Source: Ottowia thiooxydans DSM 14619 (lineage in GTDB: Bacteria; Pseudomonadota; Gammaproteobacteria; Burkholderiales; Burkholderiaceae_C). From it: 64,000 bases of DNA. Positions 10,995 through 38,825 of the stretch are shown here, in pieces. Where the stretch lies: contig NZ_AUGX01000008.1 of NCBI RefSeq assembly GCF_000422885.1, positions 372,001 to 436,000 on the forward strand, in the 5' to 3' direction. Each line of letters begins with the position of its first letter. The stretch's first letter is position 1. A program made the translations under genes and the position numbers. Below the pieces are notes generated by a model. It saw nothing but the letters and a program-made list of their open reading frames with translations, was not told where the DNA came from and ran no database searches.

Positions 10995-11822
10995 TCACCA
11001 GCGACGTGCGTGTTCAGTCACCGCTATGGTCAACACAAGGAAGAAAGCACCCAACAGCAAACCCCCGAGCACATCGGTCAGGAAATGCGCTTGCAAGATC
11101 ACCCGGCTGGCCGCGATACCGGTGATCAATAGTGCTCCTAAGACCGCCCAGAAAACACGGCGAGAAGGCGCAACCCAATCTTGCATCAGCCAGATGAGCA
11201 GCCCAAAGACAAGCAACGCGCTTGCCGCGTGTCCGCTGGGAAAGCTCAAGCCGGCGAACGCATCCGTGGGTGCCTGCGGAGGACGCGCGCGCCCTATGAA
11301 ATTCTTGAGCACCCGCACCGTCAGACCGTTGGTAGCGCAGCCAATGATCCAGACCAAGGCTAAAAAGCTCTGTTGCCGCCGCAAAAGCAACAGCGCAACC
11401 AGCCCTATCAGTGGCACTAAAGCGCCGCCGCGCCCGATATCGGTCAACAGCACCGCAAACTCATGAAGCCCGGGCAAAGTGAGGCTTTGAGCCCAAAGCT
11501 GAGCGGTCTCGTCCCATCCCTGCAAGCGCTGACCGAGGGCTGAGGCTTTCCCGGCTGTGACGCCCCAGGCCAAGACGGTGATCAACAGCGCGCAGACGAT
11601 CAGAACGGGGCCGGCGATCGACCACCGAAGCTGCGCGGCTGGTGCCTCTGGTGCGGCAACTCCCAGCCGCTGGCGCAGCCGCGCACGCTGCCAGCGCCGT
11701 TGCAAACCCCAAGCCGCCAGTAGCAGCAAAGCTGCCAGCAGCCAGGGCGCGTAGGGATCGAAAACCGAGGCGCTCTGAGCAGCAGCGGTCTGAGGCAATG
11801 TCGGCTCCGCAGGGACGCTCAT
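10995..11822 (-). CDS. PAP2 family membrane phosphatase
   Basis: This 275-residue protein has several transmembrane segments and the complete tripartite PAP2 signature: K173 through RP at 180-181 (KNFIGRARP), PSGH at 195-198 and SR at 239-240 with His246 and Asp250 ([12 protein letters not shown]). The family removes phosphate from lipids such as phosphatidic acid or undecaprenyl diphosphate, with the active site facing the periplasm. The first 70 residues, with one hydrophobic segment and an arginine-rich stretch, are longer than in minimal PAP2 proteins. Its start overlaps the oxyR stop by four bases, so it is coupled to oxyR translation. Confidence 0.9.
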
Positions 11823-12811
11823 GACAGCCGGTGAACCCCAGGCAGCTCACAGGCATAGACCGCGTTGCGCAGCGCTGCAATCGCTTCGTAGCGGGTAAAA
11901 CTGCGCCGCCAGGCCAGTACCACCCGGCGCATGGGCGGGCCGCCAGGGCCCTTGTCTTCGATGGGCAGGTAACGGACGTAAGATTCCTCCGCCCGCTCGG
12001 CACTCGCCTGATCACGGCCCTTCTCCGCCTGCTTTTGCGCTCGCAACACATCGGCTGGAACCGACAAACGAGGCACGAGGGTCACCCCCATACCGGCGGC
12101 CACCATGTGCTTGATGGTCTCCAGGGATGAGCCCTCGAAACTTTTACGGATGCCCTCCGCATCACTGGAAAAGCGCGCGAACTCAGGGCAGACTTGCAAC
12201 ACGTGGTCTCTAAAGCAATGCCCGTTTCCGAGCAGCAGCATGGTTTCGTTTTTCAGTTGTTCGGTACTGACCGCCGCCCCCTTGGCCAGCGGGTGCGTCG
12301 AAGGAACAGCCGCCATGAAGGGCTCGTCGTATAGAGGTGCTATGGCCAGGCCGGTGTCGGGAAACGGTTCGGCCAGAATGGCGCAATCGATTTCACCCGT
12401 GCGCAGCATTTCCAGCAAGCGCACTGTGAAATTCTCCTGCAGCATGAGGGGCATCTGCGGTGTATTTCGGATGATCTGGCGCACAAGATCGGGCAGCAAG
12501 TAGGGGCCTATGGTGTAGATCACGCCCAGCGTGAGCGGGCCACTCAAAGGGCTTTTGCCGCGCTTGGCGATCTCCTTGATCTCAGCCGCTTGCTCCAGAA
12601 CGCTTTGCGCCTGCCGCACAATTTCCTCGCCCAGAGGGGTGACGCTCACTTCTCCTGCGCTGCGTTCGAAGAGCTTAAGCTCCAACTCGTCTTCCAGCTT
12701 CTTGATCGCCACTGAAAGCGTAGGCTGGGAAACAAAGCAGGCTTCAGCCGCTTTGCCGAAGTGCTTTTCGCGGGCCACGGCTACGATGTACTTCAATTCC
12801 GTCAGTGTCAT
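11819..12811 (-). CDS. oxyR: OxyR hydrogen peroxide-sensing LysR regulator
   Basis: This 330-residue LysR protein has the winged helix in residues 1-60 (HFGKAAEACFVSQPTLSVAI) and the substrate domain after about 90. The redox pair Cys199 and Cys208, in GNGHCFRDHVLQVC, falls at the same positions as in E. coli OxyR, which forms a disulfide on peroxide and activates catalase and peroxiredoxin genes. The start at 12811 gives MTLTELKYIV. The gene is normally the direct neighbour of recG; here two mini-ORFs that repeat its first codons lie between them (12813-13087). It ends overlapping the PAP2 gene. Ribosome-site bases are GGGGGG about 9 bases upstream, supplied by the inserted sequence. Confidence 0.96.
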   Translation of the reverse strand: MTLTELKYIVAVAREKHFGKAAEACFVSQPTLSVAIKKLEDELELKLFERSAGEVSVTPLGEEIVRQAQSVLEQAAEIKEIAKRGKSPLSGPLTLGVIYTIGPYLLPDLVRQIIRNTPQMPLMLQENFTVRLLEMLRTGEIDCAILAEPFPDTGLAIAPLYDEPFMAAVPSTHPLAKGAAVSTEQLKNETMLLLGNGHCFRDHVLQVCPEFARFSSDAEGIRKSFEGSSLETIKHMVAAGMGVTLVPRLSVPADVLRAQKQAEKGRDQASAERAEESYVRYLPIEDKGPGGPPMRRVVLAWRRSFTRYEAIAALRNAVYACELPGVHRLS

Positions 12812-12812
12812 A

Positions 12813-12950
12813 TCACCGCCCCCCTACCCTTAGATACGAAGACGCCGTGGCCTCGATCTCCCTACGGGGTCGATCCCCGCTACGCAGGGCCCCTCGCCCT
12901 CTCCTACGGAAGACCACGGCGACTATATATTTCAATTCAGTCAGTGTCAT
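12813..12950 (-). CDS. Mini-ORF 2: 45-residue ORF repeating the OxyR N-terminus
   Basis: The ORF starts MTLTELKYIVAV, identical to OxyR residues 1-12, continues in frame through the 77-bp repeat (VFRRRGRGALRS then GDRPRREIEATAS), and ends SYLRVGGR. Its TGA is one base before the oxyR ATG (TGATATG), the same junction sequence seen between recG and mini-ORF 1. Upstream GA-rich bases could serve as a ribosome site. Translation is inferred from its geometry and from synonymous-only change in its first 11 codons. It may be a leader peptide or a by-product of element insertion; no domain is recognised. Confidence 0.55.
   Translation of the reverse strand: MTLTELKYIVAVVFRRRGRGALRSGDRPRREIEATASSYLRVGGR
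12841..12917 (-). repeat. 77-bp start-duplicating repeat, copy A
   Basis: Identical at all 77 positions to 12978-13054. Read on the minus strand the ends pair (GTGGTCTT with GAGGCCAC, including two G-U pairs as RNA), and inside is a CGGGG-ATCGA-CCCCG stem (12865-12879). It is translated in frame after codon 12 of the duplicated oxyR start. No other copy is seen in the window. Confidence 0.9.
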
Positions 12951-13087
12951 GCCAGCACCCCGCTCTTCTCGAACGCTGACGCCGTGGCCTCGATCTCCCT
13001 ACGGGGTCGATCCCCGCTACGCAGGGCCCCTCGCCCTCTCCTACGGAAGACCACAGCTACGATGTACTTCAGCTCAGTTAGCGTCAT
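12947..13087 (-). CDS. Mini-ORF 1: 46-residue ORF repeating the OxyR N-terminus
   Basis: This ORF begins one base after the recG stop (TGATATG at 13085-13091), where oxyR itself would be expected. It encodes MTLTELKYIVAV, then the same repeat-encoded arginine-rich stretch as mini-ORF 2, and ends AFEKSGVLA. Its TGA overlaps the ATG of mini-ORF 2 as ATGA (12947-12950). GAAGG lies about 8 bases upstream of its start, inside the 3' end of recG, and was probably the ancestral oxyR ribosome site. Whether the peptide is made or stable is unknown. Confidence 0.55.
   Translation of the reverse strand: MTLTELKYIVAVVFRRRGRGALRSGDRPRREIEATASAFEKSGVLA
12978..13054 (-). repeat. 77-bp start-duplicating repeat, copy B
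   Basis: Perfect copy of 12841-12917, offset by 137 bases. It follows the first 11 codons of mini-ORF 1. The 27 bases between it and the next start differ from the 29 bases in the other unit, while the core is unchanged. Perfect identity in the core beside diverged flanks is the feature that needs explaining. Confidence 0.9.
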
Positions 13088-13088
13088 A

Positions 13089-15206
13089 TCAGGCCTTCAA
13101 GTACTCTGATTTTCCGCCTAACCATCGTTCGATGTGCAAGCGGGCAAGGTTCGGGTGGTTTCTAAGCATCAGTGGAGCAGCCTGCTGAGCCCACGCCAGA
13201 AGATCGCCATCTTCCTCCAGATTGGCGAATTTGAGCAAGGCGGCGCCAGATTGGCGTGAACCCATGAATTCGCCTGGCCCCCGGATATCCAGATCGCGCC
13301 TGGCGATTTCGAAACCATCACTGGTTTCTACCATGGCCTTCAGCCGCGCGCGAGCAGATTCGCTCAATCGCCCACCTTGCGGAACCTCGTAGAGCAATAT
13401 GCAAGCGGAGGCCGCGCTACCTCGCCCTACGCGGCCCCGCAGTTGATGCAGTTGGCTGAGTCCAAAGCGCTCCGCATGTTCAATCACCATGAGGCTCGCA
13501 TTGGGTACATCTACGCCGACTTCAATCACTGTGGTGGAAACCAACACCAAGGTCTCGCCGGAGGTGAACTTGCCCATCACCTCTTTCTTGTCTGCGCTGG
13601 GCATTCGCGAATGCAGCAGGCCGATCGTGACGCCAGGCAAAGCGGCGGCCAACTCATCGTGGGTTTCAGTCGCGTTGCGCAAATCCAGCGCCTCACTTTC
13701 CTCGATCAGAGGACACACCCAGTACACCTGCCGGCCTTGCGAAATCTGGGACCGGATGCGTTCAATGACTTCGTCTCGGCGGTGCGCGGCGACGAGCTTG
13801 GTCACCACGGGCGTGCGGCCCGGGGGAAGCTCGTCTAGCGTGGAGACATCCAGGTCAGCGTAGTAGCTCATGGCGAGCGTGCGTGGAATGGGCGTGGCGC
13901 TCATCATCAGCAGATGTGGCTCTTGCGCCCCATCCCTGGCTGAAGAGCCTGGTGCATCTGGCGCCCCCGCCGTCTTCTGCCGCAAATCCAGCCTCTGTTG
14001 CACGCCAAAGCGATGCTGCTCATCAATGACGGCAAGGCCCAATTTGAAAAAATTCACTTGCTCCTGGATCACCGCATGCGTACCGACGACCAGGGCGGCC
14101 TCGCCGCTGGCGATGAGTGCCAGCATTTCTCCACGTGCTTTTTTCTTCTGACTACCCGTGAGCCAGGCCACGCGTTGGCCTCGCTCCTGCAATAAAGGGG
14201 ACAGCCATTCGGCCAGCTTGGCAAAGTGTTGCTCTGCGAGAATTTCGGTAGGGGCCATCAGGGCGCATTGCCAACCGGCGTCGATGGCAATGGCCGCTGC
14301 CAGCGCGGCCACCACGGTCTTGCCACTGCCCACATCACCTTGCAGCAAGCGGTGCATGGGTTGCACGCGGGACAAATCACGCGCGATCTCCTCACCCACC
14401 CGGCGCTGAGCACCTGTCAGCCCGAAAGGCAACACAGCCAGCAACTTCTCATGCAAGCCGTCCCGAGCCGCCACCAATTGGGGCGCCCGCAGGTGCTCAC
14501 GCTCCCTCCGTGCCTCGAACTGAGACAGCTGCTGCGCCAGCAGCTCCTCCGCCTTCAGCCGATGCCAGGCGGGATGGGTGCGGTCTTGCAGCTGAACCAA
14601 TGACACATCGGGTGTAGGCAGGTGTAAAAACGTCAGGGCGTCGCGCAGAGTCCAAGACGCCAGTTGGTGAAGTTGGCTCAAACAGGGTGCTGCCACGGTT
14701 TCGGAGAGATCGGCGCGTGACAACCCGGCGAGCACCGCTTTTCGCAGGTAGGCCTGCGGCAACGCGGCCACGGTGGAGTACACGGGGGTCAGCGATGCCG
14801 GCAGTTGGCCTGCCGCCGCACGCACCACCGGATGCATCATGGTCCACCCGGCCAATCCGCCGCGCACCTCCCCTCGTACTCGCAGACGTGCACCCACGGC
14901 CATCTGCTTTTGCAGCGAAGGATAGAAATTGAAAAATCGCAGAACGCAGTGGTCGCTGCCGTCATCCATAGTCACCAGCAATTGGCGGCGCGGGCGGAAC
15001 GTGACTTCAGAGTGGGTGACTTCTGCCTCCACCTGAACCACATCACCATGGCGGGCATCACGCAGCCGCACGATTCTGGTTTCGTCCTCATAGCGCATGG
15101 GAAGATGAAGCGCCAGATCGATGTCGCGCGCGAGACCAAGCTTGCGCAGCGCCTTCTGTGGCGCACTCAGTTTGGGGGGTGTGGAAGGCAAGGCCGAGGA
15201 GGGCAT
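13089..15206 (-). CDS. recG: ATP-dependent DNA helicase RecG
   Basis: This 705-residue helicase remodels stalled replication forks and branched DNA. An N-terminal wedge domain (about 60-160) precedes two helicase domains. Walker A reads [11 protein letters not shown], Walker B is [10 protein letters not shown] (DEQH box), and the last motif is [12 protein letters not shown]. The ORF is open to 15335, but the start at 15206 ([11 protein letters not shown]) gives normal RecG length and leaves 69 bases to the divergent queA start; the 43 extra residues look non-coding. Its stop is separated from mini-ORF 1 by one base. Confidence 0.95.
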
Positions 15207-15275
15207 GGGACAATTCTGCCGCGTTGGCAAATGCACGGGCAACGCCATTGCAACACGAACCACTATCTTTTTTTC

Positions 15276-16307
15276 ATGCGCAGCTATTCCACGAGCGATT
15301 TTGACTTCGCTCTGCCTCCCGAACTCATCGCCCAATACCCTGCCACTGACCGCAGCGGCTCTCGCCTGCTGGATGGTAGCGGCCAGACGCCTGTCGACCG
15401 CCAGTTTCGCGATTTACCCACGCTCCTGCGCGAGGGTGATTTAATGGTTTTCAACGACACCCAAGTGGTCAAGGCTCGCCTGTTCGGTGAAAAAACCACC
15501 GGCGGCAAGCTGGAACTTCTGATCGAGCGCGTGCTAAACGGTAACGAAGTGGCCGCGCACATGAAAGTCAGCAAGAAGCCGCGGGTGGGCGATACCCTGC
15601 GTCTGGCGGGGAATACGCAGGCCGTGTTGCTCGGCCGGTGGCCCGACGCGGATGGCCCCTTGTTTCATCTGCGCCTGTCTCGCGAGCCCTACGCTCTCAT
15701 GGCGGCACACGGCCATGTACCGCTACCGCCCTACATCACCCACACCGACACGGAAGAAGATACCGCGCGCTATCAAACCGTGTTTGCCAAAAATCCTGGG
15801 GCAGTCGCGGCGCCCACAGCGGCATTGCACTTTGACGAAGCTCTTCTGGCGCTGCTCGAAGCGCGCGGTGTGCACCGCGCATTCGTGACCCTGCACGTGG
15901 GAGCAGGTACGTTCCAGCCCGTGAAGACAGAGAACATCGCCGATCATGTGATGCACCGCGAGCGATACGACGTGTCAGAAACCACACAACAAGCGATTGC
16001 CGAATGCAGAGCACGTGGCGGGCGGGTGGTCGCTGTGGGGACGACCAGCGTGCGCACACTGGAATCCTGGGCACAAAGCGGTGAGGCCAGCGGAGATACC
16101 GGAATATTCATCACGCCGGGCTTTCGCTTTCAGGTGGTCGATGCGCTGGTCACCAACTTCCATTTGCCCCGGAGCACACTGATGATGATGGTCAGCGCGT
16201 TTTCAGGCTATGAACACATCATGTCCTTGTATGCGCATGCGGTGCGTGAGAGATACCGATTCTTCAGCTATGGCGATGCCATGTGGCTGGAGAGACGCGA
16301 GTTGTAG
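15276..16307 (+). CDS. queA: S-adenosylmethionine:tRNA ribosyltransferase-isomerase
   Basis: This 343-residue enzyme transfers and isomerises the ribosyl part of S-adenosylmethionine onto 7-aminomethyl-deazaguanine in tRNA, giving epoxyqueuosine. Diagnostic stretches are [14 protein letters not shown] at the start, [41 protein letters not shown] and [18 protein letters not shown] start at 15276 (MRSYSTSDF), which gives the standard length; the frame extends upstream to 14805 without support. It works in the same pathway as tgt at 18391-19563, though three unrelated genes lie between. Confidence 0.97.
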
Positions 16308-35714: not shown

Positions 35715-38700
35715 TCAGGCAGTGCGCCGCAGTACACGTGCACCCATCAGCGCCGCAGCGGCCGCCATCAGCAGCAGCATCCATTGATGCAGCGTGGGCA
35801 CTGGTGTGGGTGTCAACACGCTCGGAGCGGCGAGCTGCACAACGGCAAATGGGTCCGCGATGACGCCCGGCTGCGTGGTCTCGGAATCGCCCGCACCATC
35901 GTCAGTGACCGTAAAGCTCACCACCGTACGCCCGGCAGACACCAGCACGCCTGGGTTGAACCAGCTGCTGGCCTGGCCGCTGGCGGCTGGGCCCCATTTG
36001 AGCAATAGATTCTGAGCGGCCACAGCCTCCGGGTAGGTGATGGTGACTGTCAGCGTGTCGCCTGCGCATCCAGTGGCGCGGAAGGAAAACACTCCGTTTG
36101 GCAGCGTGGCTCCAGGATATTGCGCCTGCAAGCCCGTCAGCATCTGGCCAGTGGCCGCACCAAAACCAGTCTGCGCGGGGTCTATGGTGCAACTGACGCT
36201 GCCGCCGGTGATCGCCACCTGCACGTTACCGGGCACGCCAGGCATAGTGCCGCTCCAACTGGTGTTGGCCGATAGGCTGATGCTTTGGCTGGCATCAGGC
36301 GCAGGCTGCCACGCGCCACCGCCGCTTTGACGGGCCAGCACCGTGCAGGCACCGGAGCCAGTCATTGTGATCGTCGTGCCGCTGGCGGTACAAACGGCAG
36401 GTGTGGTGCTTTCATAGCTCACTGGCAAGCCTGAACTGGCCACCGCCACAGGATCAATCTCAAACGTGCTGCCCGCCACGAGGGCACGGCTAGCCACCGT
36501 TTGCGCCGGGAAGCTGATGCTTTGCGCAGCCAGCGTGGTAACCGTCCAGCGCATGACTGCAGCGATTCTGCCGTTCTCAAAATCCTGGTAGGCGACGTAG
36601 GGCTTGCCATCAGGGCCGAAAGCTAGTGAAGTGAACTGCGCGATACCCTCTGTGAAGCCGGCCACCCCCACCACCTCCCACCCCGTGCCCGCGCTGTTCA
36701 AACGCATCACACTGGCTTTGAGGCTATTGGCAGCGTCCAAATAAGCCACATAGGGCTTGCTATCAGGGCCGAAAGCCAGGGAAATGAAAGACGCCGCACC
36801 CGCCGAAAACCCTGCCGCACCTACTGCTTCCCACGCCGTACCCAAGCTGTTCAAACGCATCACGCTGGCTTTGTAGCTATTGTTAGGTTCCTGATAAGCC
36901 ACATAGGGCTTGCCATCAGGGCCAGGGCCGAAAGCCAGCGAAATGTATTGCGCCCAATCCGCCGAAAACCCTACTGCACCCACTACCTCCCACGCCGAGC
37001 CTGCGCTGTTCAAACGCATCACGCTGGCTTTGTCGCCATTGACGATGTCCCGATAAGCCACATAGGGCTTGCCATCAGGGCCGAAGGCCAGCGAGGGGAA
37101 ATACACCAAACCCGCCGAAAACCCTGCACTACCTACTAACTCCCATGCCGTGCCCAAACTGTTCAAACGCATCACGCTGGCTCGGCCGCCATTGGCACCG
37201 TCCGAATAAGCCACATAGGGCTTGCCATCAGGGCCGAAAGCCAGCGCGATGTAATCCTCCGCTGCGCCCGCCGAAAACCCTGCACCACCTACTGCCTCCC
37301 ACGCCGTGCCCAAGCTGTTCAAACGCATCACGCTGACTCGGTGGCCATGGGCACCGTCCGAATAAGCCACATAGGGCTTGCCATCAGGGCCGAAAGCCAG
37401 CTTGGGGTAATGCGCCTCACCCGCTGAAAACCCTGTCGCACCTACTGCCTCCCACGCCGTGCCCGCGCTGTTCAAACGCATCACGCTGGCTTTGTCCCCA
37501 TTAGTACCGTCCCGATAAGCCACATAGGGCTTGCCTTCAGGGCCGAAAGCTAGTGAAGTGAACTGCACCACCCCCATCGAGAACCCTGCCGCACCTACGG
37601 CCTCCCACGCCGTGCCTAGGCTGTTAAAAAGCATCACGCTGGCTTTGTCGCCATTGGCCTTGTCCAGATAAGCCACATAGGGCTTGCCATCAGGGCCGAA
37701 AGCCAGCGAGGTGTATAACGCCCCACCCGCTGAAAACCCTGCCCCACCTACTGCCTCCCACGCCGTGCCCGCGCTGTTCAAGCGCATCACGCTGGCTTTT
37801 TCGCCATTGGCGATGTCCTGATAAGCCACATAGGGCTGGCCGCCAGTGCCGAAAGCCAGCGAGGTGAAATACGCCTCACCCGCCGAAAATCCTGAGGCAC
37901 CTACCGCCTCCCACGCCGTGCCCAAGCTGTTCAAACGCATCACGCTGGCTTTGTTGCCATTGGCACCGTCCCGGTAAGCCACATAGGGCTTGCCATCAGG
38001 GCCGAAAGACAGCGAGGTGTAATTCGCCGCACCCGCCGAAAACCCGGCCCCACCTACCGCCTCCCACGCCGTGCCCAAGCTGTTCAAACGCATCACGCTG
38101 GCTTTGTCGCCATTGGCACCGTCCCGATAAGCCACATAGGGCTTGCCATCAGGGCCGAAAGACAGCGAGGTGTAATTCGCCGCACCCGCCGAAAACTCTA
38201 GCCCACCTACAGCCTCCCACGCCGTGCCCGCACTGTTCAAACGCATCACGCTGGCTTTGCTGCCATTGGCAACGGCCCAATAAGCCACATAGGGCTGGCC
38301 ATCAGGGCCGAAAGACAGCGAGGTGTCGTACGTCCCAGCCGCCGAAAACCCTGCCGCACCTACTGCCTCCCACGCGGTGCCCGCGCTGTTCAAACGCATC
38401 ACACTGGCTTTGTCGCCATTGGCATTGTCCCGATAAGCCACATACGGCTTGCCATCAGGGCCGAAAGACAGCGAGGTGTGAGACACCCAACCGTCTGAAA
38501 ACCCTGCCGCACCTACGGCCTCCCACGCAGTTCCCGCGCTGTTCAAACGCATCACGCTAGCTTTGCCGTCATTGGCACCGTCCTGATAAGCCACATAGGG
38601 CCTGCCATCAGGGCTGAAAGCCAGCGAGGTGTAAGCCGCCGCGCCTACGATCAACGGCGGCAACGCCCCTAACCGCTCCCACGGCCCCGTAGCCTGCGCA

Positions 38701-38825
38701 TTGGCCGCAGGTGCCAGCACCGCGAGCAACAACCCTATGACCGCTAGAAGGCGCAGCCCGCGATTCCACCAAACAGCGCCCAAAGAACAGATGTTTTTAA
38801 ACGATGTTTGCTTCATAACGATCAA
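35715..38825 (-). CDS. Large exported repeat protein with choice-of-anchor U and IPTL-CTERM-like tail
   Basis: This 1036-residue protein has a signal peptide (LLLAVLAPAANAQ), then 14 repeats of about 51 residues (roughly 65-762), each with FGPDGKPYVAY, KASVMRLNS and TAWEAVG. The N-terminal WERLG supplies the strand missing from the last repeat, as in closed beta-propellers; 14 blades could form two seven-bladed propellers. An Ig-like region and a choice-of-anchor U domain (LPNGVFSFRATGC, then SSWFNPGV) follow. The C-terminus is an IPTL-CTERM-like sorting signal: VPTLHQWM, a hydrophobic helix and RRTA. It is probably displayed on the surface. The role of the repeats is unknown. Confidence 0.85.
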   Translation of the reverse strand: MIVMKQTSFKNICSLGAVWWNRGLRLLAVIGLLLAVLAPAANAQATGPWERLGALPPLIVGAAAYTSLAFSPDGRPYVAYQDGANDGKASVMRLNSAGTAWEAVGAAGFSDGWVSHTSLSFGPDGKPYVAYRDNANGDKASVMRLNSAGTAWEAVGAAGFSAAGTYDTSLSFGPDGQPYVAYWAVANGSKASVMRLNSAGTAWEAVGGLEFSAGAANYTSLSFGPDGKPYVAYRDGANGDKASVMRLNSLGTAWEAVGGAGFSAGAANYTSLSFGPDGKPYVAYRDGANGNKASVMRLNSLGTAWEAVGASGFSAGEAYFTSLAFGTGGQPYVAYQDIANGEKASVMRLNSAGTAWEAVGGAGFSAGGALYTSLAFGPDGKPYVAYLDKANGDKASVMLFNSLGTAWEAVGAAGFSMGVVQFTSLAFGPEGKPYVAYRDGTNGDKASVMRLNSAGTAWEAVGATGFSAGEAHYPKLAFGPDGKPYVAYSDGAHGHRVSVMRLNSLGTAWEAVGGAGFSAGAAEDYIALAFGPDGKPYVAYSDGANGGRASVMRLNSLGTAWELVGSAGFSAGLVYFPSLAFGPDGKPYVAYRDIVNGDKASVMRLNSAGSAWEVVGAVGFSADWAQYISLAFGPGPDGKPYVAYQEPNNSYKASVMRLNSLGTAWEAVGAAGFSAGAASFISLAFGPDSKPYVAYLDAANSLKASVMRLNSAGTGWEVVGVAGFTEGIAQFTSLAFGPDGKPYVAYQDFENGRIAAVMRWTVTTLAAQSISFPAQTVASRALVAGSTFEIDPVAVASSGLPVSYESTTPAVCTASGTTITMTGSGACTVLARQSGGGAWQPAPDASQSISLSANTSWSGTMPGVPGNVQVAITGGSVSCTIDPAQTGFGAATGQMLTGLQAQYPGATLPNGVFSFRATGCAGDTLTVTITYPEAVAAQNLLLKWGPAASGQASSWFNPGVLVSAGRTVVSFTVTDDGAGDSETTQPGVIADPFAVVQLAAPSVLTPTPVPTLHQWMLLLMAAAAALMGARVLRRTA
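36540..38630 (-). repeat. Tandem 153-bp coding repeats
   Basis: Thirteen full and one partial unit of about 153 bases lie inside the repeat-protein gene. Units share long near-identical stretches around the codons for PDGKPYVAY and SVMRLNS, and vary at the blade turns. One unit has an extra codon pair (GPGPDG). High identity makes copy-number change by recombination likely. Confidence 0.9.

Follow-up and report, generated by a model that had tools for sequence, protein, structure and literature searches.

Tandem hairpin units between recG and oxyR in Ottowia thiooxydans probably belong to a mobile repeat family of Betaproteobacteria that occupies gene boundaries

The 64,000-nucleotide (nt) stretch of Ottowia thiooxydans DSM 14619 analyzed here, referred to as the window, carries on its minus strand two tandem copies of a hairpin-bearing unit between a recG-like gene and an oxyR-like regulator gene. 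Comparison with other genomes indicated that these units probably represent a family of short mobile hairpin repeats of Betaproteobacteria that inserts at the boundaries of genes, in particular where a stop and a start codon overlap, and mostly in the same orientation as the upstream gene. Judging from sequence comparison, the family is a small, non-autonomous, hairpin-forming mobile DNA whose niche is the gene boundary. Its copies are dispersed, stand in a fixed register to the upstream stop codon, form tandem arrays, rebuild a start codon and possess a basal stem matched to the site, and empty sites are present in relatives.

All features of the window locus lie on the minus strand. The recG-like gene (13089-15335; stop codon at 13091-13089) and the oxyR-like gene of the LysR family (11819-12811; 330 amino acids, start at 12811) were delimited from their translations, and the two names were given by recognition of the translated products. 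A previous sequence-only reading of this locus had claimed that the start of oxyR is present three times and that each of the two additional copies continues into the same 77-bp core, and this was confirmed. Start copy 1 (13055-13087) and start copy 2 (12918-12950), identified by sequence comparison, each comprise the first 11 oxyR codons, and the gene itself provides the third copy. Start copy 1, the core of unit 1 (12978-13054), which contains the hairpin CGAGGGGCCCTGC-GTA-GCGGGGATCGA, and a variable tail make up a mini-open reading frame (mini-ORF) of 46 amino acids (mini-ORF 1; 12947-13087, start at 13087), and start copy 2 opens mini-ORF 2 (12813-12950, start at 12950; 45 amino acids), whose core (12841-12917) is identical to that of unit 1 and is likewise followed by a variable tail. 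The basal stem of the window unit, GCCGTGGTC paired with GGCCACGGC, is of the same kind as in the rest of the family; in unit 2 its upper arm (12909-12920) corresponds to codons 11-14 of mini-ORF 2, and its lower arm (12844-12854) is complementary to the start region. One base separates the recG stop codon from start copy 1, as the previous reading had stated, the TGA of mini-ORF 1 overlaps the second ATG (ATGA), and mini-ORF 2 terminates at oxyR in TGA-T-ATG, an arrangement that matches that of recG and start copy 1. Over the first 12 codons, each of the three start copies reads MTLTELKYIVAV, and the nucleotide differences between copy 1 and the gene (6), copy 2 and the gene (5), and copy 1 and copy 2 (9) are all synonymous. 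The computed tandem repeat spans 120 bp at 89% with a period of 137, and only two cores, both at oxyR, were found in the 7.05-Mb source genome. The hairpins at 12850-12883 and 12987-13020 show a faint resemblance to a CRISPR repeat model (13 bits vs a gathering threshold of 38) that is probably due to chance, as both are GC-rich hairpins.

The core CGAGGGGCCCCGC-loop-GCGGGGATCGA recurs at unrelated gene junctions in many Betaproteobacteria. A DNA search with the core gave matches in 18 of 199 genomes, the source genome being counted, although some of these matches extended over 26-41 nt only. A first scan with an exact pattern gave no matches; the exact core pattern was found in 20 of 399 genomes of the taxonomic family, and a reversed control pattern in none. 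A scan of named genomes provided at least 119 stretches with the core, and among the 80 stretch titles listed, those that name a group below the phylum (e.g. Polaromonas, Ramlibacter, Variovorax, Pseudorhodoferax, Thiobacillus) are all betaproteobacterial. A covariance model built from 52 copies (E up to 0.01, with E-values that are rough, and at most 150 candidates scored per genome) yielded 2, 4, 14, 8, 19, 3, 4, 2, 12, 45, 12, and 2 matches in 12 genomes picked mostly as core carriers or congeners of carriers, six congeners of genus g69 showing 2 to 19 matches each. When plasmids and phages were searched with one core query each, one search gave no match and the other a single 29-nt match with an E-value of 0.4.

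The comparison of orthologous junctions revealed occupied and empty sites within genera. In genus g69, the junction of an ABC-type transporter gene is occupied in genomes G096 (1 unit), G501 (1 unit), and G478 (4 units), and it is empty in G280, G421, and G357. At the gatC-gatA junction, read in seven genomes, the element is present in G479, G097, G502, and G281, absent from G503, and reduced to a remnant in G358, the site of G422 not being resolved; at this junction the element arm matches the coding arm. Among the five genomes of genus g167, the glpK site is occupied by two units each in G213 and G443 and is empty in G382 and G309, the upstream context being different in G500. The same two genomes carry the element at polA, and the same two lack it. 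Sites occupied in G213 were found empty in G443 and G382 at rmuC, in G443, G382, and G309 at nagZ and at a ygfZ-like gene, and in G443 and G309 at an indolepyruvate-oxidoreductase-like gene. These gene names, as well as those of murG and gatA, are presumptive and derive from recognition of the products. In the G213 sites the ATG stands at the position that it has in the relatives and is preceded by GCCGC, which is complementary to the element arm, and the element-derived GGAGGCGCC stands before the rebuilt start; the pre-start bases at the polA, rmuC, nagZ, ygfZ-like, and oxidoreductase sites differ between G213 and the relatives with empty sites. When occupied and empty sites were compared, the ATGA neighborhood was found to be repeated, the repeated stretch ranging from a few to about 50 nt. 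Since congeners possess empty sites, the family is mobile, and the empty sites in genera g69 and g167 bear out the previous proposal of a dispersed element against that of a fixed leader lacking any empty site.

The position of the copies with respect to the neighboring genes was analyzed with one representative for each of 73 junction clusters. In 48 of the 73 clusters, vs 213 of 2190 random positions, the core is preceded at a distance of 45 nt or less by the end of a plus-strand ORF with 100 codons or more; the upstream stop codon is located 12-13 nt before the core in 27 clusters and 19-21 nt before it in 13. In the 12-13-nt class the TGA of the element serves as the stop codon of the upstream gene, often within ATGA or GTGA. 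The host sites include housekeeping genes of unrelated function, such as murG, gatA, glpK, polA, and rmuC. A long start duplication of the oxyR type is in the minority, and the common type repeats only the ATGA neighborhood and brings its own ribosome-binding site.

The mini-ORF mostly keeps the register of the next gene. The frame test was restricted to junctions in which an upstream ORF of 60 codons or more terminates in the overlap and the downstream start was recognized. Among these, the mini-ORF finishes on the next gene's start in 59 of 70 junctions and for 35 of 43 unrelated downstream genes, vs 33% when random positions in these sequences were combined with the unchanged downstream starts. 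Among 99 units located at start/stop overlaps, which are not independent of each other, 78 have mini-ORFs that end between -6 and +3 of the next start. In spite of differences in the variable tail, the last unit measures 107, 110, 113, or 116 bp in 34 of the 43 gene clusters, lengths that all leave a remainder of 2 when divided by 3, and the mini-ORFs at ATGA junctions are mostly of 36-47 codons.

The aligned units follow the order YGAGCCACCCGG - CGAGGGGCCCCGC - 2 to 6 nt - GCGGGGATCGA - CGGCAAGGCGA - A' - GCCGAC - about 30 variable nt - GGAGG - rebuilt start, where A' is complementary to A1, the bases that precede YGAG, and where TGAGCCACCCGG precedes CGAGGGGCCCCGC in the consensus over the 52 aligned copies. 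Units measure about 105-140 bp, those at ATGA overlaps being typically of 107-116 bp with their own ribosome-binding site (GGAGG) and the rebuilt start at the end, and the arrays contain up to 6 units in direct orientation. From 153 distinct matches, 134 entered the repeat test and 136 the stem test, the remainder being lost to short flanks or N. In 56 of 134 copies the direct-repeat score, which reflects rebuilt sequence, lay above the null's 95th percentile; an unrestricted inverted-repeat test reached that level in just 18 of 134. A register-restricted stem test, devised after the unrestricted result had been seen, gave scores of 7 or higher in 54 of the 136 copies vs 3.1% for pairs taken from different junctions, and scores of at least 6 in motif register were obtained in 33 of the 73 matches bearing the GAG/CGA motif, vs 3.2%.

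The stem also appears to be adjusted to the site once the element is in place. The orthologous glpK insertion shows a mismatched GCCGGAT/ATGCGGC in G443 and a matched GCCGAAT/ATTCGGC in G213, which indicates that pairing can be restored after insertion; on account of this pair we dropped the idea that every insertion generates an inverted copy of the flank. Among the units of G213 and G443 labeled as first (L298, which has 5 of 7 pairs, and L306 carried the label of inner units and were left out), those with a non-consensus A1 (n = 11) have an arm that fits their own A1 perfectly in 7 cases and imperfectly in 4, and those with the consensus A1 are perfect in 10 of 12. In Ramlibacter the stems are perfect over 14 bp and differ from locus to locus. 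Such fitting after insertion could be brought about by selection on an RNA hairpin or by template switching between the arms.

Gene starts are, however, a common target among several. At three Ramlibacter loci (L076, L088, and L090) the core is located directly behind a stop codon with no recognized start duplication, the downstream ORFs opening in both directions at L076 and L088. A second hairpin, GCTTCATCGGGCC-TCGA-TGGCCCGTTGAAGC and variants of it, follows the element immediately at these three loci, and its stem varies on both sides from one locus to another. At L009 (a metF-like gene), L042, L092, L134, L141, and L169 the core is accompanied by a duplicated gene 3' end; at the last five of these loci the element lies antisense at the gene 3' end, about the last 17 codons (PRIWTAERDKEMWAALQ) are doubled, and the stem varies by locus yet remains paired. 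The sequence-only reading had proposed an element that rebuilds the start and leaves the host gene intact, and that a search with the core should find dispersed copies, each preceded by a duplicate of the start that follows it. Many copies at unrelated genes, with rebuilt starts behind the core and intact hosts, were indeed found, whereas the copies behind stop codons and in gene 3' ends do not conform to this description; cores lacking a start duplication, which had been named as the refuting case, do occur at some loci, and the rebuilt start is still a common type. That reading was therefore largely right, correct in outline and wrong in detail.

A further part of it, an ancestral junction at which recG and oxyR abut, was not borne out. 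A unit lies 330 nt or less before oxyR in 7 of the 24 loci read (23 from the genus plus locus L089), namely in G000, G003, G004, G010, G023, G015, and L089, the unit of G015 being situated at a second oxyR-like copy (L204). In G000, G003, and G010 the first start copy follows immediately on the end of recG; in G004 a decayed unit occupies this place. In genomes with recG next upstream of a unit-free oxyR, the two genes are 168 nt (G008) or 127 nt (G019) apart, and about 0.9 kb lies between the end of recG and the oxyR array in G023, so these gaps do not support an abutting ancestral junction. In L204 and L089 the core precedes oxyR with no recG in the stretch read.

The start copies themselves have diverged almost exclusively at silent positions. 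Five genomes and L089 provided ten oxyR start copies, which differ from their own gene by 33 synonymous changes and 1 nonsynonymous change, or by 37 and 4 when the decayed copy of G015 is included, the distal decayed unit of G004, with its unrecognizable start, being omitted from the count; the neutral expectation is 25-30% synonymous. The gene-end duplications at five loci (L042, L092, L134, L141, and L169; two titled Polaromonas) show 14 synonymous to 3 nonsynonymous changes. The differences among the start copies are not explained by a simple recent duplication. Ribosome bypassing from the displaced start was considered as their cause and rejected, because the gene-end copies lie past the stop codon and bypassing thus fails to account for their synonymous divergence.

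These observations can be assembled into a mechanism. At an ATGA junction the original start becomes that of the mini-ORF, which reads through the hairpin and ends on the rebuilt start, in front of which the element provides a new ribosome-binding site, GGAGG, visible in the sequence. Because the mini-ORF ends on the rebuilt start, a ribosome could pass from the first gene via the mini-ORF to the second; the frame is preserved, and translation along this path is presumed. Insertion may proceed through a unit copy derived from an array that anneals, or is reached by template switching, at the short ATGA homology, as suggested by the unchanged position of the start codon, in front of which the bases read as those of the element. 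Arrays would collapse often between the direct repeats that flank the hairpin, and this would keep displaced starts and ends competent for coding: a nonfunctional displaced copy would leave defective offspring after collapse, and silent changes would accumulate. Frequent collapse is thus proposed to place the displaced copies under selection, hence their synonymous divergence. Tentatively, we would regard the family as a class of mobile DNA that targets the start/stop overlap itself, spreading as a translationally coupled mini-cistron with its own ribosome-binding site, adjusting its stem to its sites, and excising often enough to keep the displaced start or end coding-competent over species time.

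Several observations weigh against the proposed mobile family. In the source genome the copies are confined to oxyR, so that mobility there is deduced from relatives, and the genome with 45 model matches, G213, is a draft of 280 contigs. No mobilizer was identified, the search for transposases having covered Y1_Tnp, and neither terminal inverted repeats nor a target duplication of constant length was recognized, no search dedicated to them having been made. Coupling is lost in 11 of 70 junctions and in 21 of the 99 non-independent units. Stem mismatches comprise 9 G-U and 0 A-C pairs (null 51 vs 22), which leans to RNA but amounts to too few for proof of a constraint at the RNA level, and four units, when folded as RNA, showed no clear gain in stability over shuffled sequences (z = -1.95, -1.08, -0.51, and -0.10).

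The last two points bear on the possibility, in our opinion rather doubtful, that the units are cis-acting RNA regulators whose stem hides the first start and which control translation of the downstream gene by translational attenuation, the copies being selected as regulators. A potential for pairing of the attenuator type appears to exist in the units, since the stem can pair with the pre-start region, and the paired change at glpK, the constant distance to the stop codon, and the preserved coupling frame agree with such a role, which is compatible with mobility. Nevertheless, the host genes include housekeeping genes of unrelated function, the cores of L076, L088, and L090 lie behind a stop codon with no recognized rebuilt start, presence differs among congeners, and, apart from the unremarkable fold scores, the Rfam 15 covariance models gave no match at or above the gathering threshold at 8 loci, by which a known Rfam family was rejected; at E up to 5 two stretches gave chance-level matches only, none of them credible. 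The fitted stem could plausibly be instead a mutational product, perfected by replication template switching between the arms, a process described in PMC8794818 and PMC8604942, the hairpin being then a feature of the DNA; this is a rival of the selection reading only and is likewise compatible with mobility. The perfect 14-bp stems that vary between Ramlibacter loci speak for it, as do the differences from relatives on either arm (the element arm at gatC-gatA, the pre-start bases at polA, rmuC, and others), but it leaves the fixed distance to the stop codon and the preserved coupling frame unexplained, and imperfect stems persist, as in the 4 of 11 first units with a non-consensus A1.

Two further explanations were considered. 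A repetitive extragenic palindromic (REP)-like repeat mobilized by a REP-associated tyrosine transposase (RAYT; Y1/HUH type) would account for a short palindrome outside genes that often lies 12-13 nt past a stop codon. It is improbable, and was rejected, since a Y1_Tnp search of 7 genomes gave matches in 4 and none in G213, G214, and G044, the genome with 45 matches being among these, and since no core was found within 3.3 kb around each of four Y1 transposase loci; moreover, PMC2817692 describes RAYTs as always lying between two inverted REPs. The source genome has one Y1_Tnp gene (G000:C39:22670-22963, locus L257), with no core in the surrounding 3.3 kb. That the 5' end of oxyR was simply duplicated in tandem at this locus, with no dispersed element, is suggested by the two tandem units with a period of 137 at a single locus of the source genome, but this is highly improbable and was ruled out by the presence of the same core at dozens of other genes in other genomes and before oxyR in L204 and L089.

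In a different part of the window (35715-38825, minus strand), an ORF of 1036 amino acids with a signal-like N terminus contains about 13 copies of a 51-amino acid repeat (SLAFGPDGKPYVAY...KASVMRLNSAGTAWEAVG; 153-bp period at 83%), and its C-terminal PTLHQWMLLLMAAAAALMGARVLRRTA resembles a sorting signal.

Small repeats are commonly assumed to persist by staying clear of genes, whereas this family occupies the most constrained bases of an operon, those of the stop/start overlap, and it appears to be tolerated because it recreates them. Dozens of junctions with a short mini-ORF between coupled genes constitute natural experiments on termination-reinitiation, and matched occupied and empty sites offer a means to study how a hairpin stem is fitted, by selection or by template switching. 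There is also a risk for annotation, as a wrong start may be picked among the duplicates or spurious proteins of 38 amino acids may be called. We know of no named family that fits this element, and no prior description was found in a literature search that left most subscription journals outside; a search for the letters of the core gave only unrelated matches (a RuBisCO yeast construct and polyketide pathways).

The family shares with REP/REPIN-RAYT systems short imperfect palindromes located outside genes, partly close behind stop codons, that are dispersed and whose stems are kept through paired changes. In E. coli, PMC12306157 places 446 of 4,072 REPs at 15 nt or less from a stop codon, and an earlier study cited there 260 of 496; PMC2817692 gives 37 to 427 perfect copies in Stenotrophomonas and a GT(A/G)G-type head before the palindrome. 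REPs usually exceed 100 copies per genome, compared with the 2 to 45 model matches observed here, and the GT(A/G)G-type head is not present, its place being taken by the consensus TGAGCCACCCGG. Unlike REPs, the family shows no RAYT association in our searches, its tandems are direct and not inverted, and its units provide a rebuilt start along with a coupled mini-ORF. Rickettsia palindromic elements (RPEs) are mobile palindromic repeats of small size as well, and they too preserve the reading frame where they insert; within genes they form in-frame translational fusions (PMC10969869). Here, however, the neighboring genes remain separate with a mini-ORF between them, 59 of 70 mini-ORFs ending on the next start.

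Miniature inverted-repeat transposable elements (MITEs) such as ERIC and Correia/NEMIS are also non-autonomous, hairpin-forming sequences of 100-150 bp with lineage-specific expansions; what sets the present family apart from them is its fixed register to stop and start codons, and, as noted above, no terminal inverted repeats or constant target duplication were recognized, though no search was dedicated to them. Integrative and conjugative elements (ICEs) of the SXT type rebuild the 5' end of their target gene, prfC, and the substitute start that they supply may differ synonymously, as in the oxyR copies, but the units described here, at about 105-140 bp, are too short for an integrase gene, have many targets, and are also found at stop codons and gene 3' ends. 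The byp elements of yeast mitochondria are mobile hairpins that are skipped by ribosomes inside a single gene, so that in both cases a mobile hairpin disturbs a coding sequence and the gene survives, whereas each junction occupied by the betaproteobacterial family keeps complete and separate ORFs.

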